Part shown: positions 3,598 through 31,002 of the stretch, piece by piece | How positions within the stretch are numbered: the first letter of the stretch is position 1 | Layout: the number at the start of each line of letters is the position of its first letter | Assembly: GCF_025370755.1 (NCBI RefSeq) | Contig: NZ_JAMXFC010000054.1 | Location: forward strand, 1 to 33,503 | Reading direction: 5' to 3' | Source: Laspinema sp. D2d | Lineage (GTDB): Bacteria > Cyanobacteriota > Cyanobacteriia > Cyanobacteriales > Laspinemataceae | DNA: 33,503 bases | The notes under the pieces: generated by a model | Told to the model about the DNA's origin: nothing | Database searches by the model: none | The model's input: only the letters and a program-made list of their open reading frames with translations | Translations under genes and position numbers: made by a program

Positions 3598-4389
3598 ATG
3601 TCTATCTCCAAAAATGAAGGAAAAGCAGTCCAGAAAATTCTATGTATTGGTGGGTCTACTTTGAATAAAGGTACAATTGAAAAAATTAAGGATGCTTTAA
3701 TTGAAACTAAATTTTTACAAAAATGGGCAGTTATATTCGTTAATCATGATTATTTTAAAATAAGCTACAAGCCAGCAGAAACTCAAATAAGTAAGGATAA
3801 AATCCAGAAGGAGTCGCATGGAATTAATATTAAGTTTTTAGAACAAGTAGGCGATCATTTAATCCATAAAAATAATGTGTACATTTTGCCAGATCCGTCA
3901 AAGGTACTACCGGCAGAAGAAAATGAGGAAGACTGGCGATCTGCTGATTGTATCGAGAAAAACGGTCAGGTAATGCTTCAAGTATTAGAACCACAATCTT
4001 CTTTTGAAAAATACGATCAATGGTTTGAAAACAAACGATGTGATGCAGGTGGTAAAGAGAGAAGTTTCGATACAATGCCTTATATCGATAAATTCATGAA
4101 GGAACTTGCAGATGTAACAACAAAAATAAAAGACGTAAAAATCGCTGGTCTAATTTTATGTGGACTTGGTGGAGATGGGGCATATGGGTTAAAAGAAATT
4201 AAAAATAAAGGTGGAGCCACAGCAGTTCAGAATCCAGGTGAATGTTTGCATCCAAAAAGAGGAAAAACGACTTGCTCAATGCCACATACAGCACTAACAC
4301 TAGACAAAAATTCACCACATCAAAAAATATCAATAAAAGGAAATAGCGAGGTTATGAGTTTAATACAATGGCTAGACTCTATCCGTTAG
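3598..4389 (+). CDS. Stand-alone CheB-like methylesterase domain protein, divergent
   Basis: A 263-residue protein that I read as a diverged CheB-type methylesterase (glutamate methyl ester hydrolase of chemoreceptors). The catalytic triad positions are all present: S20 in ILCIGGST, H50 in VIFVNHDYF and D193 in ILCGLGGDGAYGLKEI. The C-terminal PHTAL after SMP matches the family's GMPrAA region, and NNVYILPDPSKV matches the vyIAP segment. There is no receiver domain, and no CheA, CheR, CheW or receptor gene nearby. The gene is clearly richer in A+T than its neighbours, lacks HIP1 sites and lies directly beside insertion sequences, which suggests foreign origin. The middle part (residues 60-170) is longer and more charged than in ordinary CheB. 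Fold call moderately sure; substrate unknown. Confidence 0.65.
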   Translation: MSISKNEGKAVQKILCIGGSTLNKGTIEKIKDALIETKFLQKWAVIFVNHDYFKISYKPAETQISKDKIQKESHGINIKFLEQVGDHLIHKNNVYILPDPSKVLPAEENEEDWRSADCIEKNGQVMLQVLEPQSSFEKYDQWFENKRCDAGGKERSFDTMPYIDKFMKELADVTTKIKDVKIAGLILCGLGGDGAYGLKEIKNKGGATAVQNPGECLHPKRGKTTCSMPHTALTLDKNSPHQKISIKGNSEVMSLIQWLDSIR

Positions 4390-9773: not shown

Positions 9774-11267
9774 ATGAAGCTCAAAGCGTTATTACCCAGC
9801 ATTCTGTTAGAGACCCTTGACAAGGAGGCGCTGGAAATCGAGGTCACGGGTTTAAGTACCAATTCCCATGCGTGCCAACCTGGGGATCTATTTATTGGAA
9901 TGCCGGGAACCCGTGTGGATGGCGGTGACTTTTGGCCCTCGGCGATCGCAGCGGGTGCAGTGGCAGCCTTAGTCAGTCCCCAAGCCGCTCAAAAACACCC
10001 GCCCCAATCCGATGCGGTGGTGATTCCGGTGGCAGATATGACCGCTGCTTGTGCCCAAGTTGCGGCTGCTTTTTATGGGCAACCGGGGAAAACACTCAAT
10101 TTAATTGGGGTAACTGGGACCAATGGCAAAACCACCACCACCCATTTAGTCGAGTTTATTCTTCAGAAAGTCCAAAAACCCACGGCCCTTCTCGGGACCT
10201 TGTATGTCCGGTGGCCGGGATTTGAACAGGTGGCGGCCCATACGACCCCGTTTGCGGTGGACCTAAATCATCAATTAAGTGATGCAGTCCAGGCGGGATG
10301 TGAATTTGGCGTGATGGAAGTCAGTTCCCATTCTTTGGCCCAAGGACGGGTGCAGGGGTTGCCGTTTCAAGTGGGGATTTTTACGAATTTGACCCAGGAC
10401 CACCTCGATTTTCATGAAACGATGGAGGATTACTTCGAGGCCAAAGCCAAGCTGTTTAGTGCGGAATATTTGGCCGGTCGTGCGGTGGTGAATATTGATG
10501 ATAGTTATGGACAGCGCTTGGCGGAACGATTGAGTGGGGATAAGTTGTGGGGTTATAGCACCCACAATTCCCAGGCTGATTTATGGACGAGTGATATCCA
10601 GTATGAACCGGCAGGAGTGAAGGGGATGCTGCATACGCCGATGGGTGAGGCAGAGTTTTCCTTGCCTTTGGTGGGACAATATAATGTGGAAAATATGCTG
10701 GCGGCGGTGGGGGCGGCCCTGCATTTTGGGATTCCCTTGGCAGAGATTGTGGCGGTGTTGCCGGAATTTCCGGGAGTACCCGGACGGATGGAACAGGTCC
10801 TGATTAAACCCGACCAGGATATTAGCGCGATCGTGGATTATGCGCATACGCCGGATAGTTTGGAAAATGTGCTGAAGGCGACGCGACCTTTTATTTCGGG
10901 GAAATTAATCTGTGTGTTTGGTTGCGGGGGCGATCGCGATCGCACCAAGCGTCCGATTATGGGTAAAATTGCCGCAGAACTGGCCGATGTGGTGGTGGTG
11001 ACTTCGGATAATCCCCGGACTGAAGACCCGGAACAGATTTTAAAAGATGTAGCGGCAGGGATTCCGGAGAATATCTCAGCGCGAGTAATTGGCGATCGGG
11101 CTACCGCGATTCGGACTGCCATCCTGGAAGCAAAACCCGGTGATGGAGTGGTGATTGCCGGTAAGGGCCATGAAGACTATCAAATTCTCGGGACCGAAAA
11201 AATCCATTTTGATGACCGAGAGCAAGCGCGGGAGGCGTTAAATCAACGGTTTGCTGCTGTGGTTTAA
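9774..11267 (+). CDS. murE: UDP-N-acetylmuramoyl-L-alanyl-D-glutamate--2,6-diaminopimelate ligase
   Basis: A cytosolic ligase that adds meso-diaminopimelate to UDP-MurNAc-L-Ala-D-Glu with ATP in peptidoglycan synthesis. Its 497 residues match the family. Three Mur domains are seen: the N-terminal UMP-binding region (LSTNSHACQPGDLFIG), the central ATPase with P-loop GVTGTNGKTTTTH at about 112-124, and the C-terminal ligand domain. D412-N413-P414-R415 is the DNPR motif that marks diaminopimelate rather than lysine specificity. The ribosome binding site is GAGGAA about 10 bases before the ATG. A structured stretch with an intrinsic terminator follows 150 bp downstream. Confidence 0.96.
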   Translation: MKLKALLPSILLETLDKEALEIEVTGLSTNSHACQPGDLFIGMPGTRVDGGDFWPSAIAAGAVAALVSPQAAQKHPPQSDAVVIPVADMTAACAQVAAAFYGQPGKTLNLIGVTGTNGKTTTTHLVEFILQKVQKPTALLGTLYVRWPGFEQVAAHTTPFAVDLNHQLSDAVQAGCEFGVMEVSSHSLAQGRVQGLPFQVGIFTNLTQDHLDFHETMEDYFEAKAKLFSAEYLAGRAVVNIDDSYGQRLAERLSGDKLWGYSTHNSQADLWTSDIQYEPAGVKGMLHTPMGEAEFSLPLVGQYNVENMLAAVGAALHFGIPLAEIVAVLPEFPGVPGRMEQVLIKPDQDISAIVDYAHTPDSLENVLKATRPFISGKLICVFGCGGDRDRTKRPIMGKIAAELADVVVVTSDNPRTEDPEQILKDVAAGIPENISARVIGDRATAIRTAILEAKPGDGVVIAGKGHEDYQILGTEKIHFDDREQAREALNQRFAAVV

Positions 11268-11889: not shown

Positions 11890-13590
11890 ATGAAGATGAA
11901 TTTATCAACAGCTCAGGATGTGTCTCTTTATGATTGCGCCCTCAGTGCGATCGCGCCGCCTCATCCCTTGCAAGTTTCCTACCCATCTTTTAAGGGCATG
12001 GTGGGCGGTGTATTTGACCTGCTGATCGAACAAAAAATCCCAGCTACGTTGTGGGTGAAGCTTCCGGATTGGTGCAACTGGCAGGCAGACCTTGATCGCT
12101 ATCGACATTTGCTCGGTGGCACAAATCCGGTCTATATCCTCAACCCCAGGCCGGATGAGGAGAGTGAAAAGATTCGCGATGAAAAGATAGAAACAGACCG
12201 AGGAACCGGAGGGACAAACGAGTTATATTCCCGACAGCGATACAGCTTTTTTCAGCAGCGATCGCCGGATAGACACAACAACTTAGAGCATCACCTCCGT
12301 CGTCACAGTCCCCCCTACAGTGCACCTTTAACCTGCGGTATTGATGAGAATTCCCTGATTAGCGATGAGGGAACAATCTTCATGCCGACCAAAACTACCT
12401 TACCCTTATGCTCTATTCAGTTAATGCTTAATAGCAAACTGAACGATGAATATTTTCTGATTGTCTTGTCCCCAGAATTATCTGTGGCAATTTTAGCCAG
12501 TCCCGCTCAATCAAAGGGAGTCGAATCCCCTTCTCATCGAGAATCTTACAAAAATAAAACCTTAGTTGCTCTTTATTCCCTCGATCAACAAACGATTCAA
12601 CAGGTCTTCGATGGATTAAAAATATCGGTGAGTAAAGGGCGGTGCCAGAGTTGTCCCATTTCTGATGAAAATCCCTACCCGATCGAGACATCCGGGCGAA
12701 TTTGCGAGAATTTACTCGCCAATTGGGACATGGCTTTTGGTCATTTGGAACTGCCCAAACCGGACCCTTTGTTATTAGGACATTTATTTAGTAAGCAACT
12801 CCAGCGACTGGAACAACAGGAACAAGAACTGGCCGGGGAGGGAGAACTGGCCGCATTGCGACGACAAAATCAAGAACTGCTGGATGCATTAGAGTTTAAA
12901 GATGAGTTTCTGAATAAGATTGGACAGGAACTGCGCACGCCATTAACGAATATGAAAACGGCTTTGAGCTTGCTGGATTCACCTAAACTGAAACCAGCCC
13001 AACGAGACCGATATAGTGCGCTCTTGCATCAGTCTTGCGATCGGCAAAATGCTTTAATCGAAGGATTCCTAGAACTGGTGCGCCTAGAAAGCGAGGTGGA
13101 TAAAGCGAAAATGGAGGGCATCCGCTTGGGAGAACTTGTCCCCGGAATTGTGAGTACCTATCAACCGATCGCCCAGGAAAAAGGGGTACTCCTCGCCTAC
13201 ACCCTCCGCAGCACGTTACCCCCCGTCATGTGCACCCGGGAATGGCTGAAAAAAATTGTGATTAATTTGCTTCAAAATGCGATTAAATTCACCGGGTCCA
13301 GTGGGGAAGTTTGGGTTCGTTCCAAGCAACAAGGCGATTATGTTCAACTAGAATTTCGCGACACGGGTATCGGCATTCCACCGGGGGAAATTCCTAAAGT
13401 TTTTGAAGCCTTTTATCGAGGTCGTCAAGCGATTAATGACGACATGGAAGGAGCCGGACTGGGCTTAACCATTGTCCAACAGCTTTTACTCCATTCCGGA
13501 GGGTCAATTACGGTCAAAAGCCGATTCGGACGGGGTTCGGTATTTAGCATTTTATTACCCGTTTACAACGAAAGCGAAGGGGATTGGTAG
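11890..13590 (+). CDS. Histidine-kinase-like sensor lacking the phosphoacceptor His
   Basis: A 566-residue soluble two-component sensor. Residues 1-75 or so look like a DICT-type sensory domain (FDLLIEQKIPATLWVKLPDW). A second input segment around 185-250 (DEYFLIVLSPELSVAILASP, then LYSLDQQTIQQVFDGL) resembles one in the neighbouring kinase. The dimerisation/phosphotransfer region starts near 335, but its H-box reads IGQELRTPLTNMKTA: Q346 replaces the phosphorylated His. The ATP-binding domain is intact: N-box INLLQNAIKF, G1 DTGIGIP at 491, G2 GAGLGL at 521-526. It may be a pseudokinase, or may phosphorylate another protein. It lies tail to tail with the second kinase gene. Domain calls are from motifs; DICT is tentative. 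Confidence 0.85.
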   Translation: MKMNLSTAQDVSLYDCALSAIAPPHPLQVSYPSFKGMVGGVFDLLIEQKIPATLWVKLPDWCNWQADLDRYRHLLGGTNPVYILNPRPDEESEKIRDEKIETDRGTGGTNELYSRQRYSFFQQRSPDRHNNLEHHLRRHSPPYSAPLTCGIDENSLISDEGTIFMPTKTTLPLCSIQLMLNSKLNDEYFLIVLSPELSVAILASPAQSKGVESPSHRESYKNKTLVALYSLDQQTIQQVFDGLKISVSKGRCQSCPISDENPYPIETSGRICENLLANWDMAFGHLELPKPDPLLLGHLFSKQLQRLEQQEQELAGEGELAALRRQNQELLDALEFKDEFLNKIGQELRTPLTNMKTALSLLDSPKLKPAQRDRYSALLHQSCDRQNALIEGFLELVRLESEVDKAKMEGIRLGELVPGIVSTYQPIAQEKGVLLAYTLRSTLPPVMCTREWLKKIVINLLQNAIKFTGSSGEVWVRSKQQGDYVQLEFRDTGIGIPPGEIPKVFEAFYRGRQAINDDMEGAGLGLTIVQQLLLHSGGSITVKSRFGRGSVFSILLPVYNESEGDW

Positions 13591-13639
13591 AGGATGAAGG
13601 ATGAAGGTTGAAAAAACTTCATCCATCATCCTTCATCCT
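13591..13639. terminator. Long hairpin between the two kinase genes
   Basis: AGGATGAAGGATGA at 13591-13604 is the perfect reverse complement of 13626-13639 (14 bp), with a 21-base spacer. It begins right after the stop codon of the upstream kinase gene. It may serve as a bidirectional terminator for the convergent pair, although the T tract is short. Confidence 0.5.
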
Positions 13640-13643
13640 TGTC

Positions 13644-13692
13644 CATTATCAATTATCAATTATCCATTATCCATTATCAATTATCAATTATC
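13644..13692. repeat. Heptamer tandem repeat MATTATC, seven copies
   Basis: Seven consecutive heptamers, CATTATC or AATTATC in the order C-A-A-C-C-A-A. The last unit contains the TAA stop codon of the minus-strand kinase gene, so the array reaches into that gene's end. Such heptamer arrays are a known cyanobacterial trait. Confidence 0.85.
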
Positions 13693-15484
13693 CCCGCATT
13701 TCTAAGGGTAAAAAGATTGTCAGCACTTGTCCATGTTGGTGACGGTTACGGACAATTAGTTTACCTCCTAGGGCTTGAAAGAGGTTTTTAGTCACGCTCA
13801 GATTTAGGCTGAGGTTGCCGGTTTCTGGCTGAAACATCAACATTTGACCGAGAGATTTGAGGGCCTGAGTCCCCGAAACCGAAGGTTCGGAATTAGAGCA
13901 GGCATGGGTTTGGGAGTGGAGTTCTACCTTCAACTGATGTCCGGCGAGGGAAATTTCAACTCGGAGTTTGCCTCCGGCGGGTAAGGTAGAGGTGAAGTTA
14001 TCGATCGCCCCGGTGAGGACTTGATCCAACAAGGAGGGGTCACTGACCACTGAGGGCATTTTTTGAGGCAGAATCACATCTAAGGTGAGGTTGCGTCGGC
14101 TGGCTTGTTTTTCCCAGCGCGGGATACAACTATTTAAAACATGGGTGAGGGAGGTGGAAGTGAGGTGCACTGGCGCGTGAGCATCCTTGGTGGTTTCCAA
14201 TTCCACTGCCCGGAAAAATAACCCAAAGCGGTCAATTTGTTCGCTACATTCACGATCAATCGCTTCTAAACGTTTGATAATCTCGGCATCGAGATGGCGG
14301 CGTTTGAGTAGGAGTCGGGTGAGGGTGCGGATGGTGGCTAAAGGCGTTCTAACTTCGTGGGCGATCGCCTGTAATAATTCCACATCCAACGCCGGAGATT
14401 GGTTGCGGACGTTCTTACTCGCTGCATCCCGCAGGTCATCTAAAGGCGGGTCGATCTCCGGTTGGCGCGGATTAGCCGTTGTGGCAGAGACGGTTCCCAC
14501 AGCCTTTCTCCCCTTTGATCGCAGGGTTTTGGCAGTCCCTGGGTCTGGATTACTCAGGGCCGTTCTCCGTTCCCCAGCGGTTGAAACCCGAGAATTCCCC
14601 TCGGGACGGGATACTTCCCAACAAATTTCCGCCTCACCATTGGGACAATCCCCACCAGATTGAGGTAAGGCCCGCATGGAGGAACCCCACCCGGTCCAAT
14701 CTGCCGCGAATGCTTCCATTTCATCCAGCATTTCGCGATCGAGTTCTACGGGTTCGGGGAGATAGTCCAAAAGCTGTTGGGTAAACTGACAGACAATTTT
14801 GTAGTCTGGGGTGCAGGGTTGAAACCGTTGGAACTGCTGATCTAAGGTGGAAATAGCGGCCTGATTTTTGAAGGGTAGCAGACGCGATCGCAATCCTTGC
14901 CAGACTAAGGCGATCTCCTCTGGATCAAAGGAAAACTGAAATGCCGGTTGTCCCTGGGGGTTTAATCCCACCACCATGACGAGACTAAACCGCGCTGTCA
15001 AGACCAAACAAAATTGTTCTCGGGCCAGGGGGTCCCCGGTAAGTAGGGGTAAAACTGTTGGGTTGGAGGCATCAAAACCGCTATCTGGGGTCGGGGGGAA
15101 CGGGGAGGAGGGTAACCAGGCGCTAGACTGCTGCACCCCAGCAAAGGTCCAGGTTGAGAACTGTTCTAAGTGGGTGGATTGAGTTAAAACCGGGACGGGA
15201 CCGGATAAAACTAACCCTTTGCTAGAGAAGGAATGGCGGGTATCGGGGTCATTCTTGGCGAGTTCGCCATCGAGGAGGTCACTCAGGGAGGCAACTGCCC
15301 CTTGCCATTGGCGATCGGCCCGAATTCGGCGCAACCAAACCGTTGCCGCATCCCGGTGGGTCGTGGTCCCATTGCGATCGCCCGGATCTTCCCCAGTCAA
15401 CCCTCTCTCTAGGTCCAAGGAATTGTCGGTTCTCCCCGCCTGTGCTAAAACCTCGCTAATCGTTGGTAAGACCCACTTGTACAC
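13688..15484 (-). CDS. Sensor histidine kinase with intact His box but degenerate ATP-binding domain
   Basis: A 598-residue soluble protein. An input segment at about 156-203 (EQFCLVLTARFSLVMVVG, then FSFDPEEIALVWQGL) resembles that of the neighbouring kinase. A linker rich in Pro, Ser and Asp follows. The phosphotransfer domain has a normal H-box, IAHEVRTPLATIRT, with H376. The C-terminal region aligns with a HATPase domain (LLDQVLTGAIDNFTS as N-box; LSVTKNLFQALGGKLIV near the end). The DxGxG (G1) motif is missing (ELHSQTHACSNSEPS there), and the Gly-rich G2 loop reads GNLSLNLS. ATP binding is therefore doubtful. It is convergent with the His-less kinase and divergent from tldD. Its defect complements that of its neighbour. 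Confidence 0.85.
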   Translation of the reverse strand: MYKWVLPTISEVLAQAGRTDNSLDLERGLTGEDPGDRNGTTTHRDAATVWLRRIRADRQWQGAVASLSDLLDGELAKNDPDTRHSFSSKGLVLSGPVPVLTQSTHLEQFSTWTFAGVQQSSAWLPSSPFPPTPDSGFDASNPTVLPLLTGDPLAREQFCLVLTARFSLVMVVGLNPQGQPAFQFSFDPEEIALVWQGLRSRLLPFKNQAAISTLDQQFQRFQPCTPDYKIVCQFTQQLLDYLPEPVELDREMLDEMEAFAADWTGWGSSMRALPQSGGDCPNGEAEICWEVSRPEGNSRVSTAGERRTALSNPDPGTAKTLRSKGRKAVGTVSATTANPRQPEIDPPLDDLRDAASKNVRNQSPALDVELLQAIAHEVRTPLATIRTLTRLLLKRRHLDAEIIKRLEAIDRECSEQIDRFGLFFRAVELETTKDAHAPVHLTSTSLTHVLNSCIPRWEKQASRRNLTLDVILPQKMPSVVSDPSLLDQVLTGAIDNFTSTLPAGGKLRVEISLAGHQLKVELHSQTHACSNSEPSVSGTQALKSLGQMLMFQPETGNLSLNLSVTKNLFQALGGKLIVRNRHQHGQVLTIFLPLEMRG

Positions 15485-15832
15485 GGAAATATCCCCCTCT
15501 ACAGTTCACTGGTTCAAATCCTTAATTTTCAATAATTGAGCAAGAATTTGTAATTTAAAACTTGCTACAAACGCTTTAATCTAAATTCAACTGAAAACAA
15601 GATACTACTAGCCTATCTGGATCTTCCCCATAAAAACATTCGTAGAACCGAACAAATCAGTCGCAATCCCCGCAGAAAATAGGCCGGGTCACCCCCTTGA
15701 TCCCGAATCGGTTTTACCCAGAAGGGGGCGATCGCCCCCTTCTGGGTAAAACCCCACCCGGTTGGTCTGTAATCAGTGAGGACAGCTATAGTAGAACATA
15801 TCAATCATTTGCGTTGGAACTCGCCCTCAACC
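15485..15832. other. Divergent region between kinase and tldD genes
   Basis: About 350 bp that must contain promoters for the minus-strand kinase gene and plus-strand tldD. The main structure is the 44-bp palindrome at 15710-15753. No gene or confident promoter motif was identified. Confidence 0.45.
15710..15753. repeat. 44-bp perfect palindrome centred on GCGATCGC
   Basis: Two 22-base arms are exact reverse complements without a spacer. The left arm starts GGTTTTACCCAGAAGGGGGC, and the centre is a HIP1 octamer. The structure is only 80 bp upstream of the tldD start. It could extrude as a cruciform, form a strong mRNA hairpin, or be a mobile repeat unit. It lacks the T tract of an intrinsic terminator. 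Confidence 0.9.
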
Positions 15833-17230
15833 ATGTCTACTTTGCTCGCTGATGCGAAAAACCTATTAGCTGAACTGATTGCTCGTTACGCCTCCCGGGT
15901 TGATTATTTAGCAATTCGCCTAGAAGAAGCGGAAGGCACCGATATCTTTTTGAGGGGTGAAAAGATTGAAACCCTAAGTGAGGGAGTCTCGATTGGGGGA
16001 CAAGTCCGCGCTTGCTATCAGGGGGGTTGGGGCTTTGCTAGTTTTAATCAACTAGCAGGACTGGCAGAACGAATCGAAGAAGCGATCGCTGCTGCGCGAT
16101 TAGTCGGGGATGAAGAAACCATTTTAGCCCCCGTGGACCCGGTACAAATTACCTGTGAACTGTTACTCACCGGCACTGACCCGAGAAAGATTCCGATTAT
16201 CGACAAAAAGAGATTGTGCGATCGCTATACGGATATCCTCCGACAAGTTGACCCGCGCATCACCACCACCTCGGTTCGTTACAGTGACAGTGCTCAACGC
16301 ATCCTCCTGTTCACCTCAGAAGGAACAATCCTAGAACAGTCTTGGGTAGATATGGAAATGCGCTTTGCCGCCACTGCACGGAATGGGGAAACGGTCCAAA
16401 CGGGACGAGAAACCACCGGATCTCGGAAAGCTTATGAAGATTTAATCCAGCTTGATTCCCAAGTGCGAGGGGCCGCCCAAAGAGCGGTAGAAGCCCTCTC
16501 CCTGCCTTCGGTGAAAGGGAACACCTACCAAGTTGTAATTGACCCCATTCTGTCGGGATTGTTCGTTCATGAAGCCTTTGGACATCTTTCTGAAGCTGAT
16601 ATGGCGTATGAAAACCCCGATTTGTTGGAAGTGATGACCCTGGGACGCCGGTTTGGTCCTGAAGAGTTACAAATCTTTGATGGTGCGGCCCCTCCGGGTC
16701 ATCGCGGAAGTTATCTTTATGATGATGAAGGAACACCTGCCACAACAACTCAGTTGATTAAAGATGGGGTACTCGTCGGACGCCTCCATTCCCGAGAAAC
16801 TGCGGGGAAATTAGAGGAAACTGCCACAGGAAATGCCCGCTGTTTGAATTATCATTATCCTCCCATTGTCCGTATGACGAATACTTGGATTGAACGGGGA
16901 AAGACTCCGGTTCAGGATTTATTTACGGATATTAAAGAAGGGGTTTATGCCCGCAATTGGCTGGGAGGAATGACGAATGGGGAAATGTTTACCTTCAGTG
17001 CTGGGGAAGCTTGGATGATTAGAAATGGTCAATTAGCTGAACCTGTGCGAGATGTCACCCTTTCGGGGAATGTGTTTAGTACCTTAGCGGATATTGAGGC
17101 GATCGGGGATGATTTCTATTGGGATGAATCTGGCGGTTGCGGCAAAGGTGGACAAAATGGGTTACCTGTAGGCTGTGGCGGTCCCAGTCTGCGAATTCGC
17201 AATGTCGTCGTAGGGGGCGAGTCGGCGTAG
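15833..17230 (+). CDS. tldD: TldD-type metalloprotease subunit
   Basis: A TldD/PmbA family protein, known as the metal-bearing subunit of a heterodimeric protease that degrades unfolded peptides and matures peptide products such as microcins. With the ATG at 15833 (MSTLLADAKNLL) it is 465 residues, usual length. An upstream GTG at 15776 extends the frame by 19 residues that look non-coding. The zinc motif HExxxH is present as H246-E247-A-F-G-H251. The conserved C-terminal part includes CGKGGQNGLPVGCGGPSLRI, typical of TldD. The partner TldE/PmbA is not in this window. An inverted-repeat element with a CCCCCCTT/AAGGGGGG hairpin lies just after the stop and may end transcription. Confidence 0.93.
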   Translation: MSTLLADAKNLLAELIARYASRVDYLAIRLEEAEGTDIFLRGEKIETLSEGVSIGGQVRACYQGGWGFASFNQLAGLAERIEEAIAAARLVGDEETILAPVDPVQITCELLLTGTDPRKIPIIDKKRLCDRYTDILRQVDPRITTTSVRYSDSAQRILLFTSEGTILEQSWVDMEMRFAATARNGETVQTGRETTGSRKAYEDLIQLDSQVRGAAQRAVEALSLPSVKGNTYQVVIDPILSGLFVHEAFGHLSEADMAYENPDLLEVMTLGRRFGPEELQIFDGAAPPGHRGSYLYDDEGTPATTTQLIKDGVLVGRLHSRETAGKLEETATGNARCLNYHYPPIVRMTNTWIERGKTPVQDLFTDIKEGVYARNWLGGMTNGEMFTFSAGEAWMIRNGQLAEPVRDVTLSGNVFSTLADIEAIGDDFYWDESGGCGKGGQNGLPVGCGGPSLRIRNVVVGGESA

Positions 17231-24864: not shown

Positions 24865-27800
24865 TTACAGAATTTCGCCCAAAATTTCCAGAAGGCGATT
24901 AACTTGATTTTCCCAGGTCCATTGTTGCATAAATTGGACAGCAGCCATGCCTTTTCCCTGGGCTATTTCTCGATTGGAATAGAGGGTTTCCAGCATTTCG
25001 AGGATTTCCTCAATGTCTGATTCTCCCCATCCTTCGACCCCGAGAAAGTGGGGGGTAGATTGGACAGGTTTCTGAGTTTTTAAGGCATAGCAATGATTGG
25101 GGTCAATCAAGTCTAAATGTCCAGTATTTGCCGATAAAATCGTAGGAATTCCGCAAGCCATTGTTTCCATTGCCACAAGGTTGGTTCCGCCTTCGCATCG
25201 ATTGGTAAACAAGGCACAGTCGGCTTCACGGATGATTTGCGGCATCAGATAATTGGGGATTGCACCAATATCGATAAAGGACTCAGGATTTAACCCATTA
25301 TTAAGTAGCCAATCGGGAATATTTAAGCGTTTATCCGCCCCAACTTGAGGCAGTCCTTTGACATGACCCGTGGTTTCCAGTCCCCGCATGAATTGGGGCC
25401 AAAAATTATGCCATGCGGTGATAAGTAAGGCTTCAGGGTGACGTTTTTGGAAGGCTTTAAAGGCAGCAATGACGATATCTTGCCCTTTGCGATATTCTAA
25501 TTTTCCGCCACTGAAGATGACGAAGCGATCGCCAAATAAATTAGACTTGGGGGCGGGATGAAACAAGGTGGGGTCAATCCCTTGGGGTAATGCCTGAACT
25601 GTAGTGATTCCCTGACTTTTGAGAACCTCGGCATTCCAAGTGGAACCGGCAATAATTAATAAATAGTCTTGGGCTAATTGGCGTTTTTCTGGGGTTAAAT
25701 TCGTATCTTCAAAGAAAATTAACCCGATATTTTGTTTGCCGCCCAGTTGTTGGGTGGTGGCAAGACTGATAAAATTATTGCCGAGGGCATGAAGGACGGG
25801 AAAATCACACCAAATGGGTTTACCGGGGTTTTGATTCCGCAATTGTTCTAAATTTTGATACCGATCGCACACAGGTTTGAGTTGCGATCGCACCAACGGA
25901 TTCACGACCCCCGTGGTATCCGGTTGTAGTAATAACATCGGTTCATATCCCGGATTTTTTTGCAGTTGGAGGGTGAGGTTTGTCCCATAAATCCCCCACC
26001 CTGTCATCTGATTGATCGGCCATGCAAGGCCCAATCTCAAGGGATTCTGAGGGGTTTTAGAAAGGGGTTGGGTGCGATCGCAACTTGATTCAGTTATCAT
26101 CGATTTCCGGTTCATCTTGACTTCACCTTCTAACCATTTTTTCCCGAGCAAAGAGGGGTTTTGTTTCGGCAGCCCCACCTTTCCAGAATTCTCTACCGTT
26201 TGCCGTAATTCTGTGGCAATGCGATCGCCTACTTTCTGCCAGTCTCCCGGTTGTTGTTGTCGGAATAATCGCAGAGTCGGATACCAAGGCGAATCGGAAC
26301 CTTCCAGTCCCCAACGCCAATCGGGAGTATAAGCTAACAATAACCAAGTGGGTTTACCCATCGCCCCGGCTAAATGGGCAACGGAAGTATCTACGGTAAT
26401 AATTAAGTCTAATTGGGCGATCGCCGCAGCCGTATCAGCAAAATCATGGAGGGATGGTCCTAAATCCTGAATGGGTAAGTTCATCCCTTGCCAAATTTCC
26501 CCCGCTTTGCCTTTTTGAAGACTATAAAATTGTACCCCAGGAACCGTTAAGAAAGATTTAAAAACATCTAGGGAACAGGACCGCTTATAATCCATTTTGT
26601 GGTTAGGATTTCCTGCCCAAACAATCCCTATTTTAAACGGGGCTGCGGATTCAAGGTTTAATTGCCGGGAATAGGGAGGCTGAATATAAGGAATGATAGC
26701 CGGAATTGTGGTTAAATTTATACCCAAAATTCGGGGCAAACTCATTAGGGGAACCCAACTGTGAAACGGTTCTAACTCCTGCTGATTGGAACTAACATTC
26801 TCAATACCCGGAACACTTTTTAAGATAAAAACTAGAGGCGCAGAAACTAAGGCAACCACCCGGATTCCCTGTTGAGCAAGTAAGGGGGCATAGCGGATAA
26901 ATTGGAGGGTATCCCCTAATCCTTGTTCCCCATATAATAGGAGTGTCTTGCCCGTTAAATCTGCACCCTCCCACCGAGGAACCTCAAAGTGAGGTGGGGT
27001 GGGGTATCCTTTGACGCGCCACCGCCATTCGTATTCGGCAAAACCGCCGCGTAAGTCTCCCGCAGTCAGGAGACTGAGGGCGAGGTTGAGGTGAGCTTCC
27101 GCCGAGTCTGACTGAATTTGGAGGGCGCGATTATAGGCAGCGATCGCCTCTGTAGTTTGATGTTGTTCCTGGAAAGCCGTTCCCAGGTTAATTTGAGCGT
27201 CAATATACTGGGAATCCAAGGCAATTGCCCGCTGAAAACAAGCTATTGCCTCAGTAATTCTGCCTGCCTTGAGGAACAGAGTCCCCAAGGTGTTATGCGC
27301 TTCTGTATAGTTGGGGTCAAGGGTAGTTGCTGCCTGGATATAGGCGACTGCCTCCGTCACATTTCCCACCTCTTTTAGGGCATTTCCCAGATGATAGTGA
27401 GCTTGACTATGATGGGCATCTATGGCGATGACTTGGCGATAATGGGCGATCGCTTCCCGGAAATTTCCCTCGTCCGACAAGGCATTTCCCAGATTATAAT
27501 GGGCAGGGAGACAATGGGAATCGACGGCGATCGCTTGTGCTAAATAGGAAATTGCCTCACCTGTTTTGCCCAAACTGCGTAAGGCTGCCCCGAGATTGAT
27601 ATAGGCAGGGAGATAGCGAGAGTCGGCAACGATCGCTTGTTTGTAATACCCAACAGCCGTATTAAGTTTTCCCCCTTGATGGGCGATCGCCCCTAACAGT
27701 TGCCACCCTTGCGCCTGAGTGGGATACTGACGCAGCAACACTCGGCAACGGCGTTGGGCGTCGGCAAAATTTCCCGCTTCGTAATCTTGGCGGGCGAGGG

Positions 27801-30800
27801 CAAATTCTGGGCTGATTGTCGGAGGTTCCGGTAAGACAACCCGCGTTGCCACTATTTCGGTTAAACTTTGTGCCACCTCATCAAAGACCCCTTGCCAATC
27901 CCCCCGTTCCTCCTGGCGAAACAAGCGCATTGTCGGATACCAAGGGGAATCACTGCGCTTCAGCATCCACCGCCAATCTGGGGCATAGCTTAACGCTACC
28001 CAGACGGGTTTACCCAAAGCACCGGCTAAATGTGCGATGGACGTATCTACCGTAATCACTAAGTCTAATTGAGCGATCACGGCGGCGGTATCGGCTAAAT
28101 CCTGTAAGTGCGGGGCTAAGTCTTGAATGGGGAGATTTTGCTGCCGAATTCGGGTTTCTTCCTGCCCTTTTTGGAGACTATACCACTTAACACCCCGGAT
28201 ATTGAGCAGGGGGAGAAAATAGCGTAAGGGACAAGAACGAGTGCGATCGCCCTTATGGTGTGGATTCCCTGCCCAGACGATGCCCACCTTAAATTCTGGG
28301 GCATCTAATATAACAGGGGCTAAATGGGTGGGAGTGAGATAGGGAACTTCTCCCGGGATGGTGGTTAAAGTTGTTCCCAGGAGGTGAGGCAAGCTCAACA
28401 GGGGAATCCAGACATCAATCGGGGCTAAGTCGGACCAATAGGCACTGACGCGATCAATGCCCGGTACGCTGGCAAATAAGCGCACCAAGGGTTGGTTAAC
28501 CAAGGCAACGACTCGCCCCCCCCGTTGGACGAGTAAGGCTCCGTAGCGGATGAATTGGATACAATCTCCCAATCCTTGCTCGGCATGGAGTAAAATTGTC
28601 TTCCCTTGGAGATCGGAACCGTCCCAAAACGGCGCAGGAATAGGGGGTAAATCGGGTGCGGCTTTCACCCGCCAGCGCCATTCATAGTCCCGAAATCCCT
28701 GACGTAAGTCACCTTGGATGAGTAAGGCAATTCCTCGGTTGTTATGGGCTTCGGAGTAATCCGGTTGTAGGTGTAGGGCGGTGTTATAGCAGGCGATCGC
28801 CTCCTCGACTCGTCCTAAGTCGTGCAACACCAACCCTAAATTATTGTAGCCTTGGGCATACTGGGGATTTAGGGTGATTGCCTGGTCAAAGTGAGGAATA
28901 GCCGGTTCTAATTCGCCTAATTCATGCAATACCATCCCTAAATTATTATACCCATCCACATGGTTCGGTTGCAACCCAATCACCCGATGAAACTGGGCGA
29001 TCGCCGCTTCCCGGTTTCCCAGTTCCCACAAGGCATTTCCTAAGTTGTAATGCAACCCCACTTCTTGCGGGGCATAAGGTAAAGCTTGGTGATAACAATC
29101 GACGGCTGCTTGAGAGTTTCCCTGAGCTTTTAAGAGCATTCCCAAATTCGTTAAAGCTACGGGATGGTTCGGCATTTGTTCCAACACTTGCCGATATAAC
29201 CGTTCCGCTGTGGTTAAATCTCCCTCCTGATGAGCTGCAATCCCGCGTCCCAGTTTAGCACTCCCATTTTGGGGCATTTCTGCCCGGTTTTCTGTCAAGT
29301 TCAATATTTCAATTAAGGCTTGTTTCACCGCCTCAAAAACACTTTGCCAATCCCCGGGCTTACGTTGGCGAAACAGGCGTAGGGTCGGATACCAAGGCGA
29401 ATCGGTGCGATGCAAAAACCACCGCCAATCCGGTGCAAATGGCAGCAACACCCAAGCCGGTTTTCCCAAGGTCCCGGCTAAATGAGCCACTGCCGTATCC
29501 ACCGTAATGATTAAGTCTAATTCCGCCATAACTTCTGCGGTATCTAGGAAATGATTCAATTGAGGGGACAAATCTTGAATCGGGACTTTCGGGGATATTT
29601 GAGTGAGTTCACCGGAGTCCTTTTGTAAACTGTAAAAGATTATTTTATCCGCTTTTAAATCTTCTACTAATTGGATAAAATAAGAGACAGAACAAGAGCG
29701 TTTTATAGCGGTAGGATTTTCATGATTTGCTGCCCAAACTATCCCAATTTTGAAAGAGGGAGAAACGAGGGAATTTGGGGCGGGGGTTTTTAGAAGAGAT
29801 CCTCCCCAACCCCCCTTAAGAAGGGGGGAGTCGGAGGCATTTTGGTCGTTTGGCACTAGAGATACATCAACCTGTGCAGGCGGGCTTTGTTCCGATCGCC
29901 CTACCCGAGAAGGGCGCGGGGGACGCACCATTAAATACGGAATTTCACGGGGAATGGTTTCTAACGTTGTACCAAAAATTCGCGGTAAACTCATCAGGGG
30001 CGCATGAACATCAAACGCCGGTAAAGGTTCATCCCTCAGAACCACGATATCCACCCCTTCTAGCTGTTTGAACAAGGGAAATAGGAGGGGATAAGACTCC
30101 AGGATTACCCGCCCGCCGTGGGCTGCGACAAGGGGAATATAGCGGATAAATTGTAGGGTATCTCCGAATCCCTGTTCACTATGGAGGAGAATAGTGCGCC
30201 CGGTGAGGGGCGAACCGTCCCATATCGGTTGCAGAAATGGACGGGGTTTGAGGGTTTCAGTTTGCCACCGCCATTCATATTCCCTGAATCCTTGTCGGTA
30301 ATCCCCGGAGATCAGGAGGGAGAGGGCGCGATTCCAATGGAACATCACGGTGTGAGGTGCGATCGCGATCGCCCGATCATAGCAAGCGACTGCCTCGGCT
30401 AAATCCCCATAATCATGCAAGGCGACGCCGAGGTTATAGTGAAATTCCGCTGAATCGGGAGAGCGATCGCAGACTTGCCGATATTGCGCGATCGCCGCCT
30501 CTAAGTCTCCCGATTCTTTGAGTGCATTCCCGAGATTCGTCTGTATTTGCAGGTCCTGCGGATCTAAGGCAAGGGCTTGCTGATACTGAGCGATCGCCCC
30601 TTGATACTCTCCCTGTTCTAGGTACAAATTACCTAAATTATACAACGCTTTGGTATAATCACCTCGGAGGGCGATTGCTTGGCAGTAATGGGCGATCGCC
30701 TCTGCCTGTTGTCCCTCCAACTTCAAAGAATTTGCCAGATTGTAATGCAACTCCGGCACATTCGGATATATCTTAATGGCTTTTTGATACCCAGCGATCG

Positions 30801-31002
30801 CCCCGAGATTGTCTCCTTCCTGGGCAGCGATCGTCCCCAACAGGTGCAATGCCAGCAGGTTTTCCGGTTCCCGATGCAGAATTTCCCGACATAGAGTGTG
30901 TGCCAGGGCAAAATTCCCGGTTTCGCAGTGTTTTTGAGCCATTTCCAAACCGTGCGAAACAGAGAGTTGTGAGTAAGGGTTCGCGGATTGATTCACGTCC
31001 AT
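24865..31002 (-). CDS. Giant TPR protein with three GT9-like modules and a C-terminal GT4 glycosyltransferase
   Basis: A 2045-residue protein built of three repeats of the same module: a TPR array, then a GT9-like (heptosyltransferase-type) domain. The GT9-like parts run about 239-550, 770-1040 and 1320-1590. Each starts with YEWRW, has a LLHSEQGFGDTLQFIRY-type strand, and ends with ITVDTAVAHLAGTLGKP and DSPWYPTLRLFRQ. TPR arrays fill about 1-235, 565-765 and 1055-1315. From about 1657 a GT4 domain follows (LAWPINQMTGWGIYG, FSGGKLEYRKGQDIVIAAF, CEGGTNLVAMETMACGIPTI). Module 1 carries an extra 50 or so residues around SPLLKGGWGG, caused by a repeat insertion. No signal peptide or membrane segment is visible. 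It is probably a multi-site glycosyltransferase for proteins or surface glycans; substrates are unknown. Confidence 0.88.
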   Translation of the reverse strand: MDVNQSANPYSQLSVSHGLEMAQKHCETGNFALAHTLCREILHREPENLLALHLLGTIAAQEGDNLGAIAGYQKAIKIYPNVPELHYNLANSLKLEGQQAEAIAHYCQAIALRGDYTKALYNLGNLYLEQGEYQGAIAQYQQALALDPQDLQIQTNLGNALKESGDLEAAIAQYRQVCDRSPDSAEFHYNLGVALHDYGDLAEAVACYDRAIAIAPHTVMFHWNRALSLLISGDYRQGFREYEWRWQTETLKPRPFLQPIWDGSPLTGRTILLHSEQGFGDTLQFIRYIPLVAAHGGRVILESYPLLFPLFKQLEGVDIVVLRDEPLPAFDVHAPLMSLPRIFGTTLETIPREIPYLMVRPPRPSRVGRSEQSPPAQVDVSLVPNDQNASDSPLLKGGWGGSLLKTPAPNSLVSPSFKIGIVWAANHENPTAIKRSCSVSYFIQLVEDLKADKIIFYSLQKDSGELTQISPKVPIQDLSPQLNHFLDTAEVMAELDLIITVDTAVAHLAGTLGKPAWVLLPFAPDWRWFLHRTDSPWYPTLRLFRQRKPGDWQSVFEAVKQALIEILNLTENRAEMPQNGSAKLGRGIAAHQEGDLTTAERLYRQVLEQMPNHPVALTNLGMLLKAQGNSQAAVDCYHQALPYAPQEVGLHYNLGNALWELGNREAAIAQFHRVIGLQPNHVDGYNNLGMVLHELGELEPAIPHFDQAITLNPQYAQGYNNLGLVLHDLGRVEEAIACYNTALHLQPDYSEAHNNRGIALLIQGDLRQGFRDYEWRWRVKAAPDLPPIPAPFWDGSDLQGKTILLHAEQGLGDCIQFIRYGALLVQRGGRVVALVNQPLVRLFASVPGIDRVSAYWSDLAPIDVWIPLLSLPHLLGTTLTTIPGEVPYLTPTHLAPVILDAPEFKVGIVWAGNPHHKGDRTRSCPLRYFLPLLNIRGVKWYSLQKGQEETRIRQQNLPIQDLAPHLQDLADTAAVIAQLDLVITVDTSIAHLAGALGKPVWVALSYAPDWRWMLKRSDSPWYPTMRLFRQEERGDWQGVFDEVAQSLTEIVATRVVLPEPPTISPEFALARQDYEAGNFADAQRRCRVLLRQYPTQAQGWQLLGAIAHQGGKLNTAVGYYKQAIVADSRYLPAYINLGAALRSLGKTGEAISYLAQAIAVDSHCLPAHYNLGNALSDEGNFREAIAHYRQVIAIDAHHSQAHYHLGNALKEVGNVTEAVAYIQAATTLDPNYTEAHNTLGTLFLKAGRITEAIACFQRAIALDSQYIDAQINLGTAFQEQHQTTEAIAAYNRALQIQSDSAEAHLNLALSLLTAGDLRGGFAEYEWRWRVKGYPTPPHFEVPRWEGADLTGKTLLLYGEQGLGDTLQFIRYAPLLAQQGIRVVALVSAPLVFILKSVPGIENVSSNQQELEPFHSWVPLMSLPRILGINLTTIPAIIPYIQPPYSRQLNLESAAPFKIGIVWAGNPNHKMDYKRSCSLDVFKSFLTVPGVQFYSLQKGKAGEIWQGMNLPIQDLGPSLHDFADTAAAIAQLDLIITVDTSVAHLAGAMGKPTWLLLAYTPDWRWGLEGSDSPWYPTLRLFRQQQPGDWQKVGDRIATELRQTVENSGKVGLPKQNPSLLGKKWLEGEVKMNRKSMITESSCDRTQPLSKTPQNPLRLGLAWPINQMTGWGIYGTNLTLQLQKNPGYEPMLLLQPDTTGVVNPLVRSQLKPVCDRYQNLEQLRNQNPGKPIWCDFPVLHALGNNFISLATTQQLGGKQNIGLIFFEDTNLTPEKRQLAQDYLLIIAGSTWNAEVLKSQGITTVQALPQGIDPTLFHPAPKSNLFGDRFVIFSGGKLEYRKGQDIVIAAFKAFQKRHPEALLITAWHNFWPQFMRGLETTGHVKGLPQVGADKRLNIPDWLLNNGLNPESFIDIGAIPNYLMPQIIREADCALFTNRCEGGTNLVAMETMACGIPTILSANTGHLDLIDPNHCYALKTQKPVQSTPHFLGVEGWGESDIEEILEMLETLYSNREIAQGKGMAAVQFMQQWTWENQVNRLLEILGEIL
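29798..29832 (-). repeat. Dispersed hairpin repeat inserted inside the giant gene
   Basis: GATCCTCCCCAACCCCCC, then an AAGAAGGGGGG arm, matches the core of the repeats at 17248-17316 and 19683-19750. On the coding strand it is read as DSPLLKGGWGGS, a peptide often produced when this repeat class enters cyanobacterial genes. The frame is kept. Confidence 0.75.

Follow-up and report, generated by a model that had tools for sequence, protein, structure and literature searches.

Complementary and conserved defects in two neighboring cyanobacterial sensor kinases point to a possible split histidine kinase

A stretch of 33,503 nucleotides from the cyanobacterium Laspinema sp. D2d (contig NZ_JAMXFC010000054.1; hereafter the window) encodes two neighboring HisKA-type sensor kinases with complementary defects. 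Of these, the plus-strand protein, A, lacks the phospho-accepting histidine and keeps its ATP site, while the convergent minus-strand protein, B, keeps the histidine and lacks an ATP site, as expected of the two halves of a split kinase. Both defects are conserved in the respective families, each of which forms a single clade, and in certain deep lineages B heads an operon that also encodes a response regulator (R) and, between the two, a kinase of the Hik2 type (C). Given that so many relatives share the two defects, A and B may together make up a single enzyme whose parts are exchangeable. The explanation that best covers the whole of these data, which we advance tentatively and a little short of calling it probable, is that B is a phosphoacceptor subunit that is phosphorylated in trans by A or by a Hik2-type partner, and that acts on an Rre1-like regulator.

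Protein A (566 residues; 11890..13590, plus strand) begins with a DICT input domain (residues 11-204, 11920..12501), which matches the Pfam model that defines DICT membership (PF10069, E 4.3e-27). A helical linker leads from there to a HisKA (DHp) domain without a histidine (residues 337-402, 12898..13095; PF00512, E 1.7e-11) and to an intact HATPase_c domain (13240..13563; PF02518, E 3.2e-27). In its H-box region, IGQELRTPLTNMKTA, the site of the phospho-accepting histidine is occupied by Q346 (codon CAG, 12925..12927), and its ATP site displays an N box (NLLQNAIKFT), a G1 box (DTGIGIP, residues 491-497) and a G2 box (GAGLGL, residues 521-526). Protein B (598 residues, GTG start; 13688..15484, minus strand) contains a DICT-like part at about residues 139-204 (14873..15070), which is seen in a profile-profile match to A and not by Pfam, a HisKA (DHp) domain (residues 369-417, 14234..14380; PF00512, E 1.7e-7) and a degenerate HATPase_c-like domain (13700..14041; PF02518, E 1.1e-3, below the cut-off). 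Its H-box region, IAHEVRTPLATIRT, contains H376 (codon CAC, 14357..14359), a candidate phosphoacceptor that is conserved in the relatives. The second asparagine of the N box (N496) is retained, and both the DxGxG motif and the glycine-rich G2 loop are absent. Above the Pfam cut-offs, A thus shows DICT, HisKA and HATPase_c, and B shows HisKA alone. The sequence, the Pfam matches and the alignments described below all bear out the initial annotation on this point, which had read A as having a glutamine in place of its phosphoacceptor with N, G1 and G2 intact, and B as combining a normal H-box with the loss of DxGxG and G2.

The defect of A was followed through three sets of relatives, which overlap in some genomes. 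The phospho-histidine position is occupied by Q, L, E or R, and never by histidine, in 30 orthologues, each from a different genome; among 313 named relatives, the best 80 have Q (77) or L (3) there. All 80 of the latter retain the second asparagine of the N box, the DxGxG motif and the GxGLGL motif. Among 30 more distant matches 29 lack the histidine. The thirtieth, L200, is a weak match to an ordinary 742-residue kinase with a histidine, which groups in the tree outside A with ordinary kinases. Hence, a normal histidine occurs nowhere in the A family as sampled (0/30, 0/80 and 0/29). Five A proteins (L191-L193, L195 and L198) have open frames of only 240-280 residues, too short to include a DICT domain, and also lack the histidine; judging from their length, these might represent a sensor-less form of A that mirrors the sensor-less form of Hik2 discussed below.

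In the B family it is the histidine that is invariant: the position of H376 is histidine in 32/32 relatives and in 30/30 further proteins from lineages that reach genomes of 1.7 Mb. It is directly followed by glutamate (32/32 and 27/30 in the two sets) and, at position +4, by threonine in all 62. Motifs of the DxGxG or GxGxG form are absent from the kinase part of all 62 proteins save for a GMGNG in L153, which lies in a variable insert and is a chance pattern match; with this set aside, neither set holds a B homologue with intact G1 and G2 boxes. The position of N496 is asparagine in 28 of the 32 proteins, and a weak Pfam match to HATPase_c is obtained for 30 of them (best E 3e-6), suggesting that the ATPase fold has been eroded rather than replaced. 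The A proteins form one clade in the tree (100/99), as do the B proteins (100/100), and the alignments indicate that the ATP site of A and the H-box of B have probably both been held under purifying selection. A DHp domain with a histidine followed by a degenerate ATPase-like domain is also the layout of the phosphotransferases Spo0B and ChpT; B differs from these in its long input region and its standard HisKA H-box. PF10090, which tests for ChpT and Spo0B, matches only one of the 32 B proteins, and that weakly (E 0.058). Fold searches with a weak model of B (mean predicted local distance difference test score of 56) returned little beyond a DHp plus a kinase-like domain, with neither ChpT nor Spo0B among the matches listed.

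To gauge how unusual such defects are within this genome, we considered its 147 HisKA places, reading 110 loci other than A and B (about 35 places were unread), with 104 of the histidine calls coming from aligned rows and the remainder made by eye. The histidine is present in 109 of the 110. The one exception, L328 (contig C13, 893-1633), has a glutamate at this position and is a 247-residue protein with a receiver and a DHp domain and no ATPase domain; A is therefore the only HisKA protein without the histidine and with an ATPase domain among the loci read. A histidine with no G1 or G2 box in frame was found at two loci in the 104 aligned rows (the six unaligned loci are not included in this count), namely a 94-residue fragment and the 348-residue L309 (C66:109800-111800; H-box SHELRSPL). 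Against this base rate, the sole histidine-less, ATPase-bearing HisKA protein read adjoins one of the few that are dead for ATP binding.

These data bear on the possibility of independent decay, in which two redundant kinases would each have lost one activity on their way out of the genome. Decay of this kind predicts proteins such as L328, which lacks both the histidine and the ATPase domain. It would also accommodate four A proteins of a single genus (L186-L189) with a changed G1 box, two of which have a changed G2 box as well, and in which A itself is possibly decaying. However, the half that remains is conserved in each family, with the ATP site kept in 80/80 A proteins and the histidine and the threonine at +4 in 62/62 B proteins, and B is retained even in a 1.7-Mb genome that has only five HisKA proteins. 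Given that no member of the A family as sampled has the histidine and none of the 62 B proteins has intact G1 and G2 boxes, we regard independent decay as very unlikely.

The two families also appear to share an input segment. A profile-profile alignment of A against B extends over 352 columns (E 9.3e-20), and hhalign of the N-terminal parts alone still gives E 3.6e-8 with a probability of 93.5. The similar input segment that had been noticed in both proteins is thus supported at the profile level, although Pfam does not extend DICT to B: PF10069 has no match in the 32 B proteins examined, at a threshold of E 0.5. A DICT histidine kinase elsewhere in the same genome (L332, C15:123225-123581; open frame of 683 residues) has the histidine together with DTGRGI and GTGLGL boxes, indicating that a DICT domain does not by itself entail loss of the histidine. 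DICT kinases similar to L332 are present in 2 of the 4 other genomes searched.

The neighborhood of the two genes was assessed from 149 A and 150 B matches listed, with 109 genomes having both; these counts are uncorrected for shared descent, and related genomes are not independent. Among the matches listed, the two genes are no more than 500 bp apart in 12/109 genomes from 8 families, convergent in every case, and no more than 10 kb apart in 21/109 genomes from 11 families. This tail-to-tail neighborhood is non-random. B is also found inside the available flank in 20 of the 80 named A loci. In the window the two open reading frames are separated by about 100 bp, most of which is occupied by a tandem repeat of the heptamer ATCCATT (10.6 copies, 13621-13693). 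Upstream of A lies murE (9774..11267, plus strand; TIGR01085), with a BLAST match in 49/80 named A loci, and beyond B lies a tldD-type protease gene (15776..17230, plus strand; PmbA_TldD domains by Pfam), with a BLAST match in 11/60 B loci (where the flank is about 1.5 kb or less) and 4/80 A loci. Recurrent next to A are murE and a protein that by eye resembles glutaredoxin, and next to B, tldD. The order murE-A-B-tldD looks inherited, and looks to have been broken many times. No regulator beside A or B in this genus was recognized among the 25 neighbor clusters listed, which were not scanned with Pfam.

A different context for B emerged from genomes of other lineages, from which twenty B-containing stretches of 10-16 kb were taken. 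In two of these, the next gene on the strand of B encodes the small kinase C, after which comes that of the response regulator R, and three genomes of family f46 show a similar arrangement. Profile searches with B, C and R in 80 genomes hand-picked across families (76 B, 71 C and 74 R matches listed) found the three genes consecutive on one strand, with B as the first gene, in 10/80 genomes, 67 of which have all three among the matches listed (e.g. L350, 5526-8412; L346, 5479-8754; L343, 6381-8277; and L366-L370). By family, the operon is present in 4/5 genomes of f37, 5/5 of f46 and 1/1 of f59. The remaining f37 genome has C linked to R, and B located on a different contig. At a threshold of E 1e-60, A is absent from 9 of the 10 operon genomes. 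All five C proteins read have the histidine and the N, G1 and G2 boxes. In the tree C groups with Hik2-like kinases of small genomes (100/99) and not with A, which forms its own clade (100/100) outside the one that unites C and the small-genome proteins. We had considered C as an ancestor of A, since the next BLAST hits of C after its orthologues are mostly A proteins, but this placement in the tree led us to reject it. Several of the Hik2-like kinases of small genomes (L207, L208, L210 and L213) have a changed G1 box (DSGEPI, DGGPPI etc.) with G2 mostly kept.

The H-box of C is exactly LLHQLRN in L365, with the variants LAHQLRN and LLHEMRN elsewhere. We take C to be of the Hik2 type from this H-box and from general background on the family, as no named Hik2 sequence was part of the tree. 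In the operon genome G112 the H-box of C is LLHQLRN, which equals the one deduced from the H185Q primer for Hik2 (PMC4751278). R is a REC protein with a LuxR-type DNA-binding domain and in this resembles Rre1, described as NarL-type (PMC4751278), so that the C-R pair is comparable to Hik2-Rre1 (PMC4751278, PMC5904244). The C proteins of the operon genomes have short N-termini, with 16-51 residues before the histidine in all but two of the ten; those two have 114, although one of them (L149) has 39 if counted from the first ATG. The 21 unlinked C proteins read have about 137-249 residues there. Of three unlinked C proteins scanned, one shows a GAF match, below the Pfam threshold. A sensor-less class II of Hik2 has been described from Gloeobacter and two early-branching Synechococcus strains, with the suggestion that it is regulated through its kinase domain (PMC5904244). 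B, encoded one gene upstream and having an input region, is an alternative candidate for the sensor of such a Hik2. The accessible parts of both reports mention no third gene in the Hik2-Rre1 pathway (PMC4751278, PMC5904244), in which B, lying in the operon of C, could be a sensor subunit.

The phyletic distribution of the two families was surveyed in 388 genomes of the class, with thresholds of E 1e-60 for A and E 1e-30 for B. A is found in 180 genomes and B in 371, with B also present in 176 of the 180 A-genomes. One of the four exceptions, G139, was matched through the ordinary kinase L200; the others, G323, G332 and G341, are 69, 96 and 68% complete. In families f49, f60 and f61 B is missing from 4 of the 5 genomes sampled, and A is absent too, apart from the false match in G139. 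Frequent occurrence of one protein without the other, which the initial annotation had named as an argument for independent decay, is therefore seen for B and not for A. This distribution suggests that B, a widespread protein, is probably an ancient subunit, and makes it plausible that A is one possible catalytic partner among others, so that the split-kinase reading has to be widened.

Several observations count against A and B forming a split kinase, in addition to the changed ATP boxes of L186-L189. A is absent at the threshold used from 195/371 B-genomes. In four small genomes the histidine is present in 20/20 PF00512 matches, B included (this search did not extend to other DHp families), and in the 1.7-Mb genome it is present in all five HisKA (PF00512) proteins, again including B, which must therefore manage there without a histidine-less HisKA partner. 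A and B are convergent and not co-transcribed, and their linkage could be mere old synteny in the order murE-A-B-tldD. No response regulator was matched by Pfam in the 21 window open reading frames scanned, out of 37 of at least 90 residues. In the operon, C has its own histidine and so need not phosphorylate B. Finally, G112 has, besides the operon, an A with glutamine at the site about 280 kb away, indicating that A and the operon kinase are not simple replacements of each other. Together, the B-genomes without A and the small genomes without a histidine-less HisKA protein imply that an obligate A-B pair is not the only working mode of B. The split kinase proposed in the initial annotation thus stands in so far as the complementary defects are conserved and independent decay is unlikely. 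An obligate and exclusive pairing of A with B is not borne out by the data, since B is commoner than A and its operon partner in deep lineages is of the Hik2 type with a histidine of its own.

These same observations raise the alternative that B belongs solely to a Hik2-Rre1 module, as an extra sensor, a phosphotransferase or an Rre1 phosphatase, and that A is unrelated to it and a neighbor merely by inherited gene order. The B-C-R operon, the many B-genomes without A, and the convergent orientation between the recurrent outer neighbors murE and tldD all agree with this. It leaves unexplained, however, why the neighbor of an ATP-dead B should be a protein that lacks the histidine and keeps the ATPase, a state unseen in the 110 other HisKA loci read in this genome, and why both defects should be conserved in their families. 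Nor does it account for the close neighborhood of A and B persisting in 8 families despite their having no common operon. We consider this alternative unlikely, though deserving of weight.

In the split-kinase reading that we tentatively prefer, B would be a sensor and phosphoacceptor subunit unable to phosphorylate itself, and its H376 would receive a phosphoryl group in trans from another protein, a catalytic subunit with which B is in contact. In lineages such as that of Laspinema this subunit would be A, the DICT-bearing kinase without a histidine, whereas in the deep lineages it would be the Hik2-type kinase of the operon that B heads. B might then pass the phosphoryl group to an Rre1-like (REC-LuxR) regulator, or remove it from there, and such a regulator could also be the target in A-bearing genomes. 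In the absence of a loaded partner B might act as a phosphatase of the regulator, as is suggested by the E-x-x-T motif that is kept next to its histidine. A more specific version, which we think possible and yet rather doubtful, is that B is a missing third component of the pan-cyanobacterial Hik2-Rre1 system, a near-universal sensor and phosphoacceptor whose ATPase domain is dead and which must borrow its catalytic subunit. In this scenario B would share an operon with a sensor-less Hik2 in the deepest lineages, and in others A would have become its dedicated catalytic half, the split having come about stepwise with B losing ATP binding first and A losing its histidine later.

Alternatively, A could be a regulatory pseudokinase, comparable to DivL or RetS, which would bind ATP and DICT signals and alter how another kinase, be it B or Hik2, folds or dimerizes, without itself phosphorylating B; the latter would be phosphorylated by Hik2 or by another complete kinase. 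The ATP boxes of A, kept in 80/80 named relatives, are under tighter conservation than a merely structural role would require, even if ATP binding alone would suffice to explain this. On balance such a role for A seems improbable without being negligible.

Among characterized systems, the split-kinase reading has a parallel in CheA3/CheA4 of Rhodobacter sphaeroides, neither of which autophosphorylates alone while the mixture does, CheA3 being also a phosphatase (PMC3591291). There too, one protein binds ATP without having the phosphorylatable part and the other carries the histidine, a division that for A and B is known from sequence. However, the Rhodobacter proteins are CheA-type kinases with P1-P5 domains from a chemotaxis cluster (PMC3591291), whereas A and B are HisKA-type proteins that both keep a DHp domain and an input region, the losses having occurred by residue change or erosion rather than by deletion of domains. 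Pfam detects no CheA or Hpt domain in A or B, only HisKA and HATPase_c, plus DICT in A. Hence, A and B may work like CheA3/CheA4 without being members of that family. In Synechocystis the histidine and the ATP-binding parts are likewise distributed over two proteins, Hik36 and Hik43 (PilL-N/PilL-C), for which two-hybrid contact is reported, although together they correspond to a CheA homologue that has been split and that contains Hpt and CheW-interaction domains (PMC7656254).

The closest precedent of the HisKA type is FasB/FasC of group A Streptococcus, for which a DHp heterodimer is proposed in which the kinase domain of FasB phosphorylates H246 of the pseudokinase FasC; the kinase domain of FasC itself can be dispensed with (PMC12675982). 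FasB keeps a candidate histidine, and the fas genes form one locus with their regulator (PMC12675982); in contrast, no A protein read has the histidine, and A and B are convergent with no regulator matched in the window frames scanned. That a related kinase can lose its histidine and yet keep its ATP-binding domain is illustrated by the chloroplast sensor kinase CSK, which is of cyanobacterial descent and has, in green algae and plants, Tyr or Glu in place of the H-box histidine (PMC2677595). CSK differs from A in belonging to the Hik2 family, with a putative GAF input and a location in plastids (PMC2677595), while A belongs to another family with a DICT input. Literature searches with the phrases used found nothing on A or B themselves.

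A HisKA pair conserved over many families, with no histidine in one partner and an eroded ATP site in the other, would illustrate how a homodimeric kinase can turn into a heteromer. Ultrasensitive switching by split histidine kinases is possible in a model, the biochemically characterized case there being of the CheA type (PMC3591291). If B belongs to Hik2-Rre1, it would be an overlooked subunit of a near-universal cyanobacterial pathway with chloroplast descendants, and signal input to the sensor-less class II Hik2 (PMC5904244) would become testable, with a candidate sensor located one gene upstream.

Elsewhere in the window, positions 117-2770 are taken up by whole or fragmentary transposase genes, with DDE_Tnp_1 pieces and one transposase of the HTH/DDE_3 type, and a 263-residue protein with a partial match to the CheB methylesterase is encoded at 3598-4389. 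The far side of the window (24865-31002) encodes a 2045-residue TPR-repeat protein with glycosyltransferase domains.

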